Shown here: piece by piece, positions 17,483 to 57,737 of the stretch | Layout of the letters: every line of letters begins with the position of its first letter | Position numbering within the stretch: the stretch's first letter is position 1 | NCBI GenBank assembly: GCA_009885695.1 | Contig: VFKE01000056.1 | Coordinates: forward strand, 1 to 64,000 | Length of the DNA: 64,000 bases | Direction: 5' to 3' | Source of the DNA: Verrucomicrobiota bacterium | GTDB lineage: Bacteria; Verrucomicrobiota; Verrucomicrobiia; Verrucomicrobiales; Verrucomicrobiaceae | Translations under genes and position numbers: made by a program | The notes under the pieces: model-generated | The model's database searches: none | What the model was told of the DNA's origin: nothing | What the model saw: only the letters and a program-made list of their open reading frames with translations

Positions 17483-18898
17483 ATGACCGCTGAAACTCCA
17501 GACATCTCCGACATCCGGGCTGACAGCGTGGGCGACTTCCGCTTTCCCGAGCAGCATAAATACGACGCGGGCATGGGCCTTAGCGAGAAAACCGTTGACT
17601 ACATCTCCGGCGTTAAGAACGACGACCCATGGGTGCGCGACTTCCGCAAGCACGGCCTGAAGACCTTCCTCGAGAAGCCGATGCCGACCCATTGGGCGAC
17701 CAAGGACCTAGAGAACATCCACTTCGACCAGTTCCGTTACTACTTGTCCGACGGCCAGAAGCCGAAGCGCAGTTGGGACGACGTGCCGGACGACATCAAG
17801 CGCACCTTCGACCGTCTGGGCATTCCCGAGCAGGAGCGCAAATTCCTCGCCGGTGTCGAGGCCCAGTATGATTCCGAGGCTGCCTACTCGAACGTGAAAA
17901 AGGTTGTCGAGGAACAGGGAGTCATCTTCCTCAACAGCAGCGAGGCCTTGCAGAAGCATCCGGAAATCTTCCGCAAATGGTTCGGCAAGGTCATCCCCAC
18001 CGGCGACAACAAATTCTCCGCGCTCAACAGCGCGGTGTTCAGTGGCGGCTCGTTCATCTACATCCCGCCCGGCGTGAAGGTAAAGCATCCGCTCCAGGCC
18101 TACTTCCGCATCAACAGCGAGCAGTTTGGCCAGTTCGAGCGCACGCTCATCATCGCCGACGAAGGCGCCGAGGTCATGTATATGGAGGGCTGCACCGCAC
18201 CCAAGTTCGAGACCGCCACCTTGCACAGCGCCGTGGTCGAGCTGGTCGCCATGAAGGGCGCAAAGATTCAATACGTTACCGTGCAGAACTGGAGCAGTAA
18301 CGTGTTTAACTTAGTAACCAAGCGGGGCCTGGCCCACGAGGAAGCCGAGATCAAATGGATCGACTGCAACATCGGCAGCCGCCTGACCATGAAATATCCC
18401 GGCGTCATCATGAAAGGCCGCAAGGCACGCGGTGAAGTCATCAGCATCGCCCTGGCCAACACCGGCCAGCACCAGGACACCGGCGCCAAGATGGTCCACG
18501 CCGCCGATGAAACGACGAGCAACATCATCAGCAAGTCCATCAGCATCGGCAAAGGCCGCGCCACCTACCGCGGCCTGGTCCACATCCCGAAGCATCTCAA
18601 GGGCTGCAAGAACAACACCGAATGCGACGCCCTGCTCATCAACAGCAGCAGCCGCACCGACACCTATCCCGCCATCAACGTCCGCGGCAACAAGCACGCC
18701 ACCCAGCACGAGGCCAGTGTCAGCCAGGTCAGCGCCGAGCAGATTTTCTACATGCAGCAGCGCGGCCTCAGCGAAGCCGAAGCCATGAGCCTCTCCGTCA
18801 ACGGTTTCATCAATGACCTCGTCCGCGAGTTCCCCATGGAATACAGCGTCGAACTGAAGCGCCTGATTGATTTAGAAATGGAAGGGTCTGTTGGTTAA
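17483..18898 (+). CDS. sufB: Fe-S cluster assembly protein SufB
   Basis: [71 protein letters not shown]. Confidence 0.96.
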
Positions 18899-18917
18899 GC
18901 GATCGGCAATCAATCAA

Positions 18918-20345
18918 ATGTCTCTTGCCATGTCCGTCGCCGCCCCCACCGCCGAATCTATAGTGGACCAGCCTTTGTTCGCGCAACCGCAACTCATGCC
19001 GCAAGCCAATCGCCTGAACGGCGCGCCAGCTTGGTTCCAGCAACGCACCGCCGCAGCCTGGGACGAATTTCAATCGCTGCCCGTTCCCGGAAACAAAGAC
19101 GAACACTGGCGCTACTCCAGCGCGAAGAAACTGGCCTTCGAAACCTTTCAGATAGCCGCTAATCCGAGTGAAGCTGACAAACAAGAAGCGATTGCGCGTT
19201 CCAAGGGGCTGACGGAATACGCAGCGAAGCTCGTGTTCGTCAACGACTGCCTCGCAAGTAACACAGGCATCCTGCCTGTGGGTCCAGCAGGCTTCCAGCC
19301 TGTTGTCAGTTCGGATGTGCCGGCCGGAAGCCCTCACAACACACAGGCCACAGGCCTGTGCCACAACTTCATCTGTTTGCCCTTCGAAGATGCCCTCCGC
19401 ACCCAGGGCGATGTCCTCGAGCAATACCTCATGAAGCGCAAGGCGGAACTCGGTTCAGCAAAATTCGCCGCGCTCCATCTCGCCCACGTCCGCGCCGGAG
19501 CCGTGGTCCTGGTGCCGAAGAACGTCGTCATTGAACATCCCATCGAAGTCTTTCACTGGGTCACAGGCGAGAATGCCGTCATCTTCCCGCACACGCTCAT
19601 CGTCACCGGCGATCACGCGCAGGTCACAGTCGTGGATCATCACGGCTCGCTGCGCGATGAAAGCTGCGCCAGCATCGCCGTGGCCGACTTCGTGGCCGGC
19701 CCCGGCAGCCGCATCACCTACATCAGCGCGCAGGAGATGTCGCTCAGCTCGCGCGCCTTGCACATTTCCTCCACCACCGTCGGTCGTGACGCGTCTGTGA
19801 AAGCGTTGCAGCTCCATCTCGGTGCCGCGTTCAGCCGCAACGAGACCGTAAGCGACCTCATTGGCGAAGGCGCCCGCAGTGAAATGCTCGGCGTATCATT
19901 GCCCTTCGGCGAACAGTGCGTGGACATGCGCACGCTGCAGAATCACATCGCCCCGCGCACCTTCAGCGACTTGCTCTACAAAAACGCACTCTACGATAAA
20001 TCAAAGACGGTCTTTGCCGGCCTCATCCAGGTTGAGGAAGGCGCCCACTACACCGACGCCTACCAGAAGTGCCGCAACCTCCTCAACAGCGAGGAGGCCG
20101 AGGCCGCTTCCATGCCCGGTCTGGAGATCAATGCCGATCAGGTCAAATGCAGCCACGGCGCGACCAGTGCTCCCATCAGCGAGGACGAACTTTTCTATCT
20201 CAAGGCGCGCGGCATTCCCGACAACGAGGCCCGCAAGCTGATCGCCACCGGCTTCATCGAGGACACCATCGCCAAACTGGAGAACCAGACGTTGATGGTC
20301 GATCTGGATCATCGCATCGAGGCGAAATTTGCCGCGATGATATAA
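18918..20345 (+). CDS. sufD: Fe-S cluster assembly protein SufD with in-frame REP-derived insert
   Basis: RTFSDLLYKNALYDKSKTVFAGLIQV; KCSHGATSAPISEDELFYLKARGIP; insert TGILPVGPAGFQPVVSSDVPAGSPHNTQATGLCHNF. Confidence 0.92.
   Translation: MSLAMSVAAPTAESIVDQPLFAQPQLMPQANRLNGAPAWFQQRTAAAWDEFQSLPVPGNKDEHWRYSSAKKLAFETFQIAANPSEADKQEAIARSKGLTEYAAKLVFVNDCLASNTGILPVGPAGFQPVVSSDVPAGSPHNTQATGLCHNFICLPFEDALRTQGDVLEQYLMKRKAELGSAKFAALHLAHVRAGAVVLVPKNVVIEHPIEVFHWVTGENAVIFPHTLIVTGDHAQVTVVDHHGSLRDESCASIAVADFVAGPGSRITYISAQEMSLSSRALHISSTTVGRDASVKALQLHLGAAFSRNETVSDLIGEGARSEMLGVSLPFGEQCVDMRTLQNHIAPRTFSDLLYKNALYDKSKTVFAGLIQVEEGAHYTDAYQKCRNLLNSEEAEAASMPGLEINADQVKCSHGATSAPISEDELFYLKARGIPDNEARKLIATGFIEDTIAKLENQTLMVDLDHRIEAKFAAMI
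19258..19366. repeat. REP-like element (family GTGGCACAGGC) inserted in sufD
   Basis: acaggcatcctgcctgt, gcaggcttccagcctgt, cacaggccacaggcctgtgccaca hairpins. Confidence 0.85.
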
Positions 20346-24029: not shown

Positions 24030-24158
24030 GAGCATTTTTAAAAAGACGTAGCCGCAACTCGTGAGAGTGCGGGAAAAATCACGGCAGCCAACGAAGTATG
24101 CCTATTCCGCGCGTTCTCACGAACGCGGCTACGAAATTATTTATACCGCACTAGCGGT
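24030..24158 (-). repeat. REPIN/MITE-like element, copy 2, inverted relative to copy 1
   Basis: Reverse complement aligns to 164-291 with few mismatches. Confidence 0.85.
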
Positions 24159-24216
24159 CTGACTCTCCCCTGCGGCTTCATTAAATTGGCTAGGAAATTG
24201 CGAAGATCCGCATCAC

Positions 24217-29973: not shown

Positions 29974-30935
29974 TTTTAGGCACCCGCGGCAGCGAACTGG
30001 CCCTACGCCAAACAGAGATGGTGATGGCTGCTCTGCGCGAAGCCCATTCTTCGCTGGAGGTGATGAAGAAAATCATCTCCACCATCGGCGACCAGCGCAC
30101 CGACCTGCGCTTCAGCGAATTCACAGAAGGCGGGCATCTCGACAAAGGCATCTTCACCAAGGAACTCGAGATCGCGCTCGCGGCGGGTGAGATCAACGCC
30201 GCGGTGCACAGCTTGAAAGACGTGCCCACGGAGTTGGACGCCGCCTTCATGATCGCCGCCACACTGCCGCGCGCGCCGATCGAGGACGTGCTCGTGAGCC
30301 GGGACGGCTATAATTTGAAGATGCTTCCCGCGGGTGCCCGCATCGGAACCAGCAGCGTGAGGCGCATCCGGCAATTGCGATGGCTGCGACCTGATGTGAC
30401 CTGCGTCGAGATTCGCGGCAACGTACCGACACGCGTAAAAAAACTCATCGCGCCCTCCGATCTCGATGGTGTGCTGCTGGCCCGCGCCGGCCTGGAGCGG
30501 CTCGGCCTGCTTTGTGGCACAGGCTTCCAGCCTGTGGTTCCCACGGGCAGCCTGCCCGTGGTCATAGACGGACATACCCTCCGTGCAGCCATCCTCCCCT
30601 GCTCCGAATTTCTTCCCGCCGCAGGCCAGGGCGCCATCGGCATCGAAGCCCGCCGCACGGATGCAAGGACGCTTGAACTGCTCCGCCCCATCAACCACTC
30701 AGAAACGTTCGCCCGCGTCACTGCCGAACGTGAGTTCCTGCACCTGCTCAGGGCCGGATGCCAGACGCCCATCGGTGCGCACACCTGGATCGAGGGCACG
30801 ACGCTGCACATGAAAGTGTGCGTCTTCAACGAATCCGACCCTGCTGCTCCACCCTTCGAGGCCTCCGCCTCCTCGCCGCTCGCGACACCGGAAAATGCCG
30901 CTGCGGAACTGGCGCGACTCGTCCAAACGCGCTAG
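29955..30935 (+). CDS. hemC: Hydroxymethylbilane synthase (probable TTG start) with in-frame REP insert
   Basis: ILGTRGSELALRQTE; AAVHSLKDVPTEL; GTSSVRRIRQL; LPAAGQGAIGIEAR; insert CGTGFQPVVPTGSLPVVIDG. Confidence 0.93.
   Translation: MNLESLILGTRGSELALRQTEMVMAALREAHSSLEVMKKIISTIGDQRTDLRFSEFTEGGHLDKGIFTKELEIALAAGEINAAVHSLKDVPTELDAAFMIAATLPRAPIEDVLVSRDGYNLKMLPAGARIGTSSVRRIRQLRWLRPDVTCVEIRGNVPTRVKKLIAPSDLDGVLLARAGLERLGLLCGTGFQPVVPTGSLPVVIDGHTLRAAILPCSEFLPAAGQGAIGIEARRTDARTLELLRPINHSETFARVTAEREFLHLLRAGCQTPIGAHTWIEGTTLHMKVCVFNESDPAAPPFEASASSPLATPENAAAELARLVQTR
30511..30566. repeat. REP-like element in hemC
   Basis: tgtggcacaggcttccagcctgtggttcccacgggcagcctgcccgtgg, two adjacent hairpins. Confidence 0.85.
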
Positions 30936-32498: not shown

Positions 32499-32622
32499 CA
32501 CTGGCAGTGGCAATAAGTTGCAACCTGTGTGTCGTCCGACCATTCTGCCGGGACTGAGTGTGCCATTACCCGGCCAGAATGGCCGGGCTACACACAGGCT
32601 CTGAAAGCCTGTGCCACATAGC
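32499..32622. repeat. REP-like element, intergenic
   Basis: ctggcagtggcaa...ccggccagaatggccgggctacacacaggctctgaaagcctgtgccaca. Confidence 0.75.
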
Positions 32623-45485: not shown

Positions 45486-45594
45486 TGTGGCACAGCGCCT
45501 CCGGCCTGTGTGTTGCCCGGGCATTCTGCCGGGGCGATCTTCAGATTCCGGGCAGAATGCCCGGGCCACACAGGATGCAAACCAGTGCCACGCT
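45486..45594. repeat. REP-like element (GTGGCACAG...CAGTGCCAC)
   Basis: tgtggcacagcgcctccggcctgtg, cccgggcattctgccgggg, ccgggcagaatgcccggg hairpins. Confidence 0.75.
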
Positions 45595-54968: not shown

Positions 54969-55015
54969 GTAAGGCTCAAGATGCCACCGGCTTGGTTTCG
55001 TGCTACTGATACCTC

Positions 55016-57514
55016 GTGATTCCCCGACTCCAGCCCCCTGAATTGCTCGCGCCCTCAGGCAACTGGGACTGCGCGCGCGCCGCAGTGGCCAACGGCGCTG
55101 ACGCGATTTACTTCGGGCTGCCGCGATTCAACGCCCGGCTGCGCGCGGACAATTTTACGGATGATGATTTGCCGCGGCTCATGGAATTTCTCCACCAACA
55201 TGGCGTGCGCGGCCACTGCGCGTTTAACACATTGATCTTCACCAGTGAACTGGCCGATGCAGAAAGACAAATCCGCCTGCTGGACGATACAGGCGTGGAC
55301 GCTGTGATCGTGCAGGACCTCGGTCTCGCACGGATGATCAAAGACATCGCGCCGCGGATCAAACTCCACGCCAGCACGCAGATGACCATCACTTCGCCAG
55401 AAGGCTTGCGTTTTGCGCGCAAGCTCGGACTCGATCTGGCGGTGCTGGCGCGGGAATTATCGCTGCGGGATTTGGAACGATTTCAAAGGGAAAACAATCC
55501 GCTGCCGCTGGAAGTGTTCGTGCATGGCGCGCTCTGTGTGGCCTATTCCGGCCAGTGCCTGACGAGTGAATCGCTCGGCCGGCGCAGCGCCAACCGGGGC
55601 GAATGCGCACAGGCCTGCCGGATGCCCTATGAATTGATCGTCGATGGCGTGAAGCAGGATCTCGGTGAGAAGCGCTACCTGCTTTCGCCTCAAGACCTTG
55701 CGGCGGTGGATGAAATCCCGCGACTGATCGAACTCGGCGTGCGCAGCTTCAAAATTGAAGGCCGGCTGAAGACACCGGAATATGTCGCGGCGGTGACTGG
55801 AGTGTATCGCAAGGCCATTGATGCAGCGATGAAGGTTCAAGGTTCAGGGTTCAGGGTTCAAGGTTGTGATGAAGAAGATCGCCATGCCTTGGAGATGACC
55901 TTCAGCCGCGGTTTGTATTCCGGCTGGATGCACGGCGTGAACCATCAAGAATTAGTGGGCGCGCGCTTTGGCAAAAAGCGCGGGCCGTTCATCGGTGAAG
56001 TTCTGCGTCATGCGACCGATGGCGTGGAGTTGACCGAAATGCGCGTGCCACTGAAGCCGGGCGACGGAGTGGTGTTTGAGAATCCGAGCAACACCGACTA
56101 CGAACAAGGTGGATTCCTCTACGCCGTGAAAGGCAACTGCATCGAATTCCAACGCGAGAAACTCGACTTCACACGCATCCCACTGGGAACACGCCTCTAT
56201 AAAACGAGTGATCCGGCGCTGGACAAGAAGTTGCGTGCGACATTCCAAGGCGAGATTCCCCTGCGCAAGCAGCGCGCCCTGCACTTGAGCGTCAGTGGCG
56301 CAGCGGGTGAATCACTGACGCTCTCGCTGCTTGATGACAAAGGTCAAGCCGCTGAAAGTGTGACATCCGGAATGCCATTGCAGGTAGCGCAAAAACGACC
56401 GCTGACTCGGGAGTCACTCCTGGAGCAATTCGGAAAACTGGGTGGCACACCGTATGAAATCGCCACGCTCGAAGTGCGGCTGGAAGATGATTTGATTCTG
56501 CCGATAAGTGAGTTGAACCGGATGCGGCGGGCCTTGGTGGAAAAGTTGAGTGGCACCGGCTTGCAGCCGGTGTGTAGCGCAGGCATCTTGCCTGCACAGG
56601 ATGCTGCACTGGCGGACAGAATGTCCGCCCTCCACACAGGCTCCAAGCCTGTGCCACAAGCCGAACCGTCGTTGTTCATCCTCTGCCGCAATTCCGAGCA
56701 GATCACCGCAGCACTCGATGCCAATGTGACGCGAATTTACGCGGACTTCGAAGACATCCGGCTGTTCGCGGAAGCGGTTGCGCAGGTGCGACAGCACGGT
56801 GGTGGCACGGAGATATTCCTCGCCACGCCGCGTATCCAGAAACCGGGTGAGTCCGGATATTTCAAGCTGATATCCAACGCAAAGCCAGATGGCGTGCTGA
56901 TCCGCAACCTGGGGTCGATCGAATTTTTCGCATCATTGGGACTGCGAATGGCGGGAGATTTTTCACTCAACGTGGCCAACCCGCTCACCGCTGATTTCTT
57001 GATCGAATCCGGACTGGAACGGCTCACGGTTTCTTACGATCTGGACATCGGCCAGGTGCTCGATCTGCTGCGCGCGGCACCACCGTCCTGGTTTGAACTC
57101 ACGCTGCACCAGCACATGCCGATGTTTCACATGGAGCACTGCGTCTTCGCCGCGTTCATGTCGCAAGGGAAAACATCGCTCGACTGCGGTCGCCCCTGCG
57201 AAAAACACAGCGTCAAACTGCGCGACCGTGTGGGCATGGAACACCCGTTGAAAGCGGACGTCGGCTGCCGGAACACGCTGTTCAACGCCGTGCCGCAGAC
57301 CGGGGCCAGGTTCTTCAGCGATCTGATGCAGGCCGGACTGCGACACTATCGGGTGGAACTTCTTGAGGAATCCGCCAGCGCCGCCGCCCAGGTAATTGAA
57401 ACTTACCAGGCGTTGCTCAGCGGCGCGCGCGGCGGTGCCTTGCTCTGGCGCGAACTTCGGGCGCAATCACAACTCGGCGTGACCAGCGGGACCTTGCGGA
57501 CGGATGACAAATAA
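55016..57514 (+). CDS. U32-family peptidase with heptamer array and REP insert in coding region
   Basis: LLAPSGNWDCARAAVANGADAIYFGL; HGALCVAYSGQCLTSESLGRRSANRGECAQACRMPYEL; RSFKIEGRLKTPEYVA. Confidence 0.93.
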   Translation: MIPRLQPPELLAPSGNWDCARAAVANGADAIYFGLPRFNARLRADNFTDDDLPRLMEFLHQHGVRGHCAFNTLIFTSELADAERQIRLLDDTGVDAVIVQDLGLARMIKDIAPRIKLHASTQMTITSPEGLRFARKLGLDLAVLARELSLRDLERFQRENNPLPLEVFVHGALCVAYSGQCLTSESLGRRSANRGECAQACRMPYELIVDGVKQDLGEKRYLLSPQDLAAVDEIPRLIELGVRSFKIEGRLKTPEYVAAVTGVYRKAIDAAMKVQGSGFRVQGCDEEDRHALEMTFSRGLYSGWMHGVNHQELVGARFGKKRGPFIGEVLRHATDGVELTEMRVPLKPGDGVVFENPSNTDYEQGGFLYAVKGNCIEFQREKLDFTRIPLGTRLYKTSDPALDKKLRATFQGEIPLRKQRALHLSVSGAAGESLTLSLLDDKGQAAESVTSGMPLQVAQKRPLTRESLLEQFGKLGGTPYEIATLEVRLEDDLILPISELNRMRRALVEKLSGTGLQPVCSAGILPAQDAALADRMSALHTGSKPVPQAEPSLFILCRNSEQITAALDANVTRIYADFEDIRLFAEAVAQVRQHGGGTEIFLATPRIQKPGESGYFKLISNAKPDGVLIRNLGSIEFFASLGLRMAGDFSLNVANPLTADFLIESGLERLTVSYDLDIGQVLDLLRAAPPSWFELTLHQHMPMFHMEHCVFAAFMSQGKTSLDCGRPCEKHSVKLRDRVGMEHPLKADVGCRNTLFNAVPQTGARFFSDLMQAGLRHYRVELLEESASAAAQVIETYQALLSGARGGALLWRELRAQSQLGVTSGTLRTDDK
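55834..55868. repeat. Heptamer array (GGTTCAR)x5 in U32 gene
   Basis: ggttcaa ggttcag ggttcag ggttcaa ggttgtg, encodes KVQGSGFRVQGCD. Confidence 0.92.
56549..56659. repeat. REP-like element in U32 gene
   Basis: agtggcaccggcttgcagccggtg...cacacaggctccaagcctgtgccac; encodes SGTGLQPVCSAGILPAQDAALADRMSALHTGSKPVPQ. Confidence 0.9.
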
Positions 57515-57537: not shown

Positions 57538-57737
57538 GTCGCAGAGCGACAATGGATGATAGCCGTGGGTTTCAACCCACGGTTGACGTCCACAAGCGTA
57601 TCCGTCGCGTAGCGACGACGGAACCGGGCTTTGCCAAGCTGTCTCATCGAGTTACATTGTCGCTACGAGACAAAATTAATTTGCGGCTACGACCGTGGGT
57701 TGAAACCCACGGCTACCGTCCGCCGTTGCTCTGCGAC
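57538..57737. mobile_element. MITE-like element, about 200 bp, with about 45-nt imperfect terminal inverted repeats
   Basis: gtcgcagagcgacaatggatgatagccgtgggtttcaacccacgg at the left, inverted counterpart at the right; internal hairpins. Confidence 0.75.

Follow-up and report, generated by a model that had tools for sequence, protein, structure and literature searches.

A palindromic REP-type repeat carried in frame within the sufD gene of a Verrucomicrobiaceae bacterium

The sufD gene of the Verrucomicrobiaceae genome studied here contains a hairpin-rich stretch of DNA across which the reading frame stays open. What is this DNA, how did it come to lie inside a gene, and what becomes of it in the protein? 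The original prediction, made on 64,000 nucleotides of this genome (the whole stretch analysed, hereafter the window), was that a palindromic element at positions 19258-19366 had been exonised into SufD and added roughly 36 residues, much as the palindromic elements (RPEs) of Rickettsia do. We consider it very likely that a REPIN headed by GTGG inserted in a loop of sufD and is read through as a disordered loop.

Extent and structure of the repeat

The sufD open reading frame spans positions 18891-20345 on the plus strand, with a likely ATG start at 18930, chosen by alignment with a relative from the same genus (G001), whose SufD begins ...PMSVAVPIAE. The product is identified by NCBIfam TIGR01981 (238 bits, for a cut-off of 222). 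In the window's own genome (G000), a fragmented draft of 216 contigs, a search found no second SufD, the other match being SufB. The element itself is 107 nt long (GTAACACAGG...CCTGTGCCAC), lies on the plus strand at 19258-19364 and reads in frame as SNTGILPVGPAGFQPVVSSDVPAGSPHNTQATGLCH. The predicted start and peptide thus hold, and the end falls two nucleotides short of the predicted one. We also confirm the absence of any stop or frameshift, as the frame is open throughout. A covariance model (R1), for which 13 other copies but not that of sufD served as the training set, scores the stretch at 73.2 bits (E 1.9e-14), and its single-stranded DNA fold has an energy of -29.1 kcal/mol (z -4.2), which none of 200 shuffled sequences equals.

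Four stem-loops make up the sufD copy. A left head, decayed from GTGG to GTAA (19258-19261), is followed by a left outer stem-loop (CACAGGCATCCTGCCTGTG, 19262-19280), supported by both the fold and the 13-copy consensus. The single-stranded fold then gives a left inner stem-loop (CAGCAGGCTTCCAGCCTGTTG, 19285-19305), a degenerate right inner stem-loop (19316-19338) and a right outer stem-loop (CACAGGCCACAGGCCTGTG, 19342-19360), after which comes the inverted head, CCAC, which is an intact GTGG. The same plan is found in the repeat consensus, which consists of GTGGCACAGGCTTGCAGCCTGTGTGTAGCCCGGGCATTCTGCCCGG, a variable spacer and the inverted equivalent, most copies measuring 102-111 nt. In the 13-copy consensus, GTGGCACAGGC-TTGCA-GCCTGTG, a GT(A/G)G head adjoins a short imperfect palindrome, as in REPs of the GTAG/GTGG superfamily, and each REP unit here comprises two stem-loops, namely GTGGCACAGGC-loop-GCCTGTGTGTAG and a GC-rich hairpin. 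As the composites are inverted REP pairs separated by a spacer and able to form a larger hairpin, a REPIN with a GTGG head is the best reading of the sufD stretch. No Rfam family matches the element at E values up to 1. Splicing was considered as well and rejected, as we saw no sign of it or of any removal; the word exonised is thus misplaced, and the insert would simply be translated through.

Dispersal, host genes and codon phase

The repeat is abundant. Within the window, GTGGCACAGGC occurs eight times with at most one mismatch, where 1.8 occurrences are expected and none of 100 shuffles reaches eight; genome-wide, it has 39 exact matches, compared with nine for a reversed control. R1 matches listed on both strands of the genome number 136, corresponding to about 70 places, a dispersal typical of REPs. 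Some of these copies lie elsewhere in the window. A single REP unit (CGTGFQPVVPTGSLPVV, 30514-30561, plus strand, 38.6 bits) is inserted in frame within hemC, where it adds 12 residues according to the HemC family alignment, and a full composite (56550-56657, plus strand, 108 bits) is inserted in frame within a Pfam-supported U32-peptidase/DUF3656 open frame (55010-57511). Two others, at 32507-32617 (minus strand, 69.9 bits) and 45487-45591 (plus strand, 91.3 bits), are composites with no long open frame over them and are probably intergenic. The window also holds repeats of other kinds: a pair of long inverted repeats about 24 kb apart (161-286 and 24035-24159, 85-89% complementary), which belongs to another dispersed family, and a 46-nt inverted repeat of a different palindrome family (GTCGCAGAGCGAC...CGTGGGTTTCAACCCACGG, 57538-57737), just downstream of the U32 peptidase frame.

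When 67 of the places in the genome were examined, about 16 proved to fall within long open frames that Pfam matches support, and most of the others had no long open frame over them. Besides SufD, the hosts are UvrA (two genes), Mfd, MutS, DNA polymerase I (PolA), GcvP, a PBP1C-like protein, TsaD, the U32 peptidase, an RND transporter, CarB, FeoB, MacB/FtsX, a heparinase and HemC; DNA repair genes account for five of the 16, as a raw count. Copies are also numerous in some relatives, the number of R1 matches varying widely: many in a Phragmitibacter MAG (G005) and in a genome of genus g6 (G006), six on both strands in G001, and none in most genomes of genus g8. Host proteins in the Phragmitibacter MAG are ValS, GcvP, a PpiC-type isomerase, a HyuB-like protein, a glycosyltransferase and SufD. 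Farther away, weaker matches to R1 are scattered in 20 of 195 genomes of the phylum (strict filters, best 20 candidates scored per genome), which shows no more than that related repeats exist outside this group.

The scorable copies within genes share one codon phase. In all 21 of them the left arm has its first G at codon position 2, one truncated copy being left out of the count; in sufD, for example, its offset from 18891 is 367 nt. The resulting peptides resemble (S/C/G)GTG(L/F)QPV. One of the other two phases of the consensus contains a stop, and the second is open (VAQACSLC...), so that, given two open phases, 21 copies in a single phase have a probability of about 1e-6. The simplest reading of this bias would be selection against the Cys-rich peptide. 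The transposase might instead prefer certain target sites, and this alternative accounts for the neglect of the second open phase and for left junctions that are identical in different genera; we regard it as a possible but minority explanation, as selection purging the peptide of the other phase, which is hydrophobic and rich in Cys, explains the bias with no need for a preferred target.

The SufD loop among relatives

The original prediction held that the insert is lineage-specific, and the SufD alignment bears this out: SufD was matched in 64 genomes of the Verrucomicrobiaceae, and of these only the window's genome and the Phragmitibacter MAG (loci L075 and L032) span the insert. Between the LVFVND strand and the EAL/DAL helix, the loop measures 56 residues in the former, 53 in the latter and 28-29 in the other relatives read. 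The net gain is thus 27 and 24 residues, respectively, with about 9-12 native loop residues absent. For the window's SufD, the predicted figure of about 36 residues is right for the inserted peptide and too high for the net gain, because about nine ancestral loop residues are missing (29 to 56).

A looping out of the insert, also predicted, is what the structural model indicates. The AlphaFold2 model of SufD, built with 25 sequences, has a pTM of 0.84, and chains of E. coli SufD are among its closest structural matches (TM about 0.75-0.88). Residues 126-158 are the sole internal segment below a pLDDT of 50, and the insert sits between a strand ending near residue 117 and a strand starting at residue 161, ahead of the beta-helix. 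The insert therein appears to be a disordered loop, its low pLDDT also reflecting the thin alignment, as only two sequences contain it. Given the open frame, it is probably translated, as a floppy 36-residue loop.

Comparison of the window with the Phragmitibacter MAG indicates how selection acts on the gene and on its insert. In the flanks, dN is 0.12 and dS 1.49 (dN/dS 0.083), and in the insert pN is 0.230 and pS 0.236 (dN/dS near 1): purifying selection acts strongly on the host gene and not on the insert, which suggests a tolerated passenger. These values bear on two other explanations. One might suppose, the draft being in so many contigs, that sufD is a pseudogene in decay or that assembly created the insert; we find this extremely improbable for an intact gene with such constrained flanks and no second SufD in the genome, and with an independent genome that has an insert at the same SufD position. 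Neither do we give much credit to selection of the insert for a function in SufD, as a domesticated linker or interaction loop. Its presence with an open frame in two genera might be taken in that sense, but the idea is very unlikely in view of the dN/dS ratio, the lack of predicted structure, the absence of the insert from the remaining SufD-matching genomes of the family, the same-genus relative included, and the occurrence of the same kind of peptide in many unrelated proteins.

Having set aside a function for a tolerated passenger, we may ask how old it is. The insert differs between the window and the Phragmitibacter MAG at 23% of sites, and flanking synonymous sites differ at 65%. Over the part of SufD covered by its contig, G001 is 76% identical to the window's protein, compared with 71% for the Phragmitibacter MAG, and has a loop of ordinary length. 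Because G001 has an empty site and the two inserts are too alike for neutral DNA as old as the split between the genera, the data favour separate insertions in one permissive loop. Transfer of part of sufD from one genus to the other by recombination was likewise considered and rejected, since identity in 15-codon blocks reveals no block resembling the Phragmitibacter MAG outside the insert.

The main alternative is a single ancient insertion in the ancestor of the window's genus and Phragmitibacter, kept in both lineages and lost in G001. Several observations agree with it: the two SufD inserts have identical sites, orientations and left junctions; their central 35 nt are 83% identical, and all of 651 other cross-genome pairs are lower (best 77%); and at each of the four loci compared between these genomes (SufD, GcvP, MutS and UvrA), REP-derived inserts occupy the same place in both and are absent from G001. 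This scenario nonetheless requires a loss that restored the native loop in the closer relative and an insert that diverged far less than flanking synonymous sites, and it does not account for UvrA and MutS, as the insert in the Phragmitibacter UvrA is a different palindrome and that in its MutS is shorter. We thus retain it as a real but less probable possibility, and simple vertical sharing was not adopted, on the grounds of the empty site in G001, the synonymous excess in the flanks and the different element in UvrA.

Separate insertions in one permissive loop may have occurred in other proteins as well. The loci compared were a non-random choice, comprising the above four and HemC, in which the inserts of the window's genome and of G006 share one position. 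These shared loops look like tolerated loops struck repeatedly; the MutS and UvrA sites vary in length over the family even without REPs. Some of the loops have particular contents. In the Phragmitibacter UvrA (L332), the different palindrome filling the loop reads CATGGGCATCCTGCCCATG...; in G001, the loops of uvrA (L333) and gcvP (L287) hold SEVRTERS-like low-complexity tracts; and in the HemC of G006 (L180), the position of the window's hemC insert is taken up by a far longer one, of about 40 residues (SSDTGLQPVGETDILSV...TDKMSVSL). A bolder and rather unlikely proposal is that the REPIN-RAYT system itself inserts by preference into the same permissive loops, those of enzymes for housekeeping and DNA repair, keeping to one codon phase and doing so repeatedly in separate lineages. 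If true, such a system would act as a natural mutagen that inserts loops by means of an element compatible with coding.

A candidate transposase and known REP systems

The genome contains 17 matches to Y1_Tnp. A candidate RAYT is encoded on contig C151 (8944-9525), between inverted half-units of the sufD-element family. Its protein passes the Pfam cut-off for Y1_Tnp and falls just below that of NCBIfam REP_Tyr_transpos (79.4 bits, cut-off 80). It carries an HxH motif in MPNHVHAIV and a candidate catalytic tyrosine in EYIAQNP, and thus combines the Y1 transposase domain, HUH motif, (candidate) tyrosine and REP flanks that characterise RAYTs. Among the relatives searched, its closest homologue is found in G006 (59% identity) and also has REPs on both sides; the best full-length match in the element-rich Phragmitibacter MAG is only 47% identical. 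Judging by its flanking REPs, this RAYT probably mobilises the REPIN; the several other Y1 transposases in the genome, and the low identity of the best match in the Phragmitibacter MAG, speak against this link. On the minus strand of the same contig (L030:914-2437), the RAYT frame meets no stop ahead of the downstream REP and runs on in frame into a NUDIX domain, giving an open frame of 508 aa that is possibly a RAYT-REP-NUDIX read-through or fusion.

In the mechanism that we propose, the RAYT, which belongs to the HUH transposases of IS200/IS605 type, would copy such elements as single-stranded hairpins, and one copy would have inserted in the sufD loop after the LVFVNDxL strand, with the loss of about nine native residues. 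This copy would have been retained because the site is permissive and its frame open and benign (of the GTGFQPV/ILPV type, with many Gly, Pro and polar residues), and the ribosome would pass through it to yield a SufD with a disordered loop. For annotation, TGFQPV- or RQDACAT-like peptides in verrucomicrobial proteins would accordingly be translated repeats rather than motifs. About 15 proteins (SufD, HemC, UvrA, Mfd, MutS, PolA, GcvP and TsaD among them) offer material to study mobile DNA that adds loops, and the host set allows one to ask whether RAYTs have target or phase preferences and why DNA repair genes recur in distant phyla.

In-frame intragenic REPs are already known. Intragenic GTAG REPs were reported in 2013, most cases being in the verrucomicrobium Opitutus terrae, where they add 20-30 residues, both uvrA genes carry REPs, DNA repair genes are emphasised and most GTAG-20 elements have a head mutated to GTGG (PMC3733652). 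The repeats described here resemble them as short tagged palindromes, often dimers, within open reading frames of the same phylum and of similar hosts (uvrA and repair genes), a likeness of description; they differ in that each unit here has two stem-loops. They also resemble REPIN/RAYT systems, REPINs being inverted REP doublets (PMC3116915, 2011) with a GT(A/G)G head (PMC2817692, 2010): doublets of about 105 nt in many copies, the same head, and a RAYT with inverted REP flanks. Described REPINs were analysed as extragenic, whereas about 16 of about 67 copies here lie in domain-supported genes. As for the RPEs, they are described as palindromic repeats inserted in frame and tolerated in housekeeping genes (Ogata 2000, 2002, as reviewed in PMC10969869), and intragenic CGTC-tagged REPs of R. 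conorii have been equated with RPE-4 and RPE-6 (PMC3733652). The predicted analogy is sound as regards in-frame insertion of a tolerated palindrome into protein genes, and the family differs, by description, in its phylum, GTGG head and RAYT link; the closest precedent is that of O. terrae. The sufD element is best placed in the GTAG/GTGG REP-REPIN superfamily. What is new is the set of about 15 domain-supported hosts, the single codon phase, the same loops in different genera and the contrast in dN/dS between the insert (near 1) and its flanks (0.08). Together these extend translated REPs to the Verrucomicrobiaceae with comparative data on empty sites, insert neutrality, phase and loop reuse.
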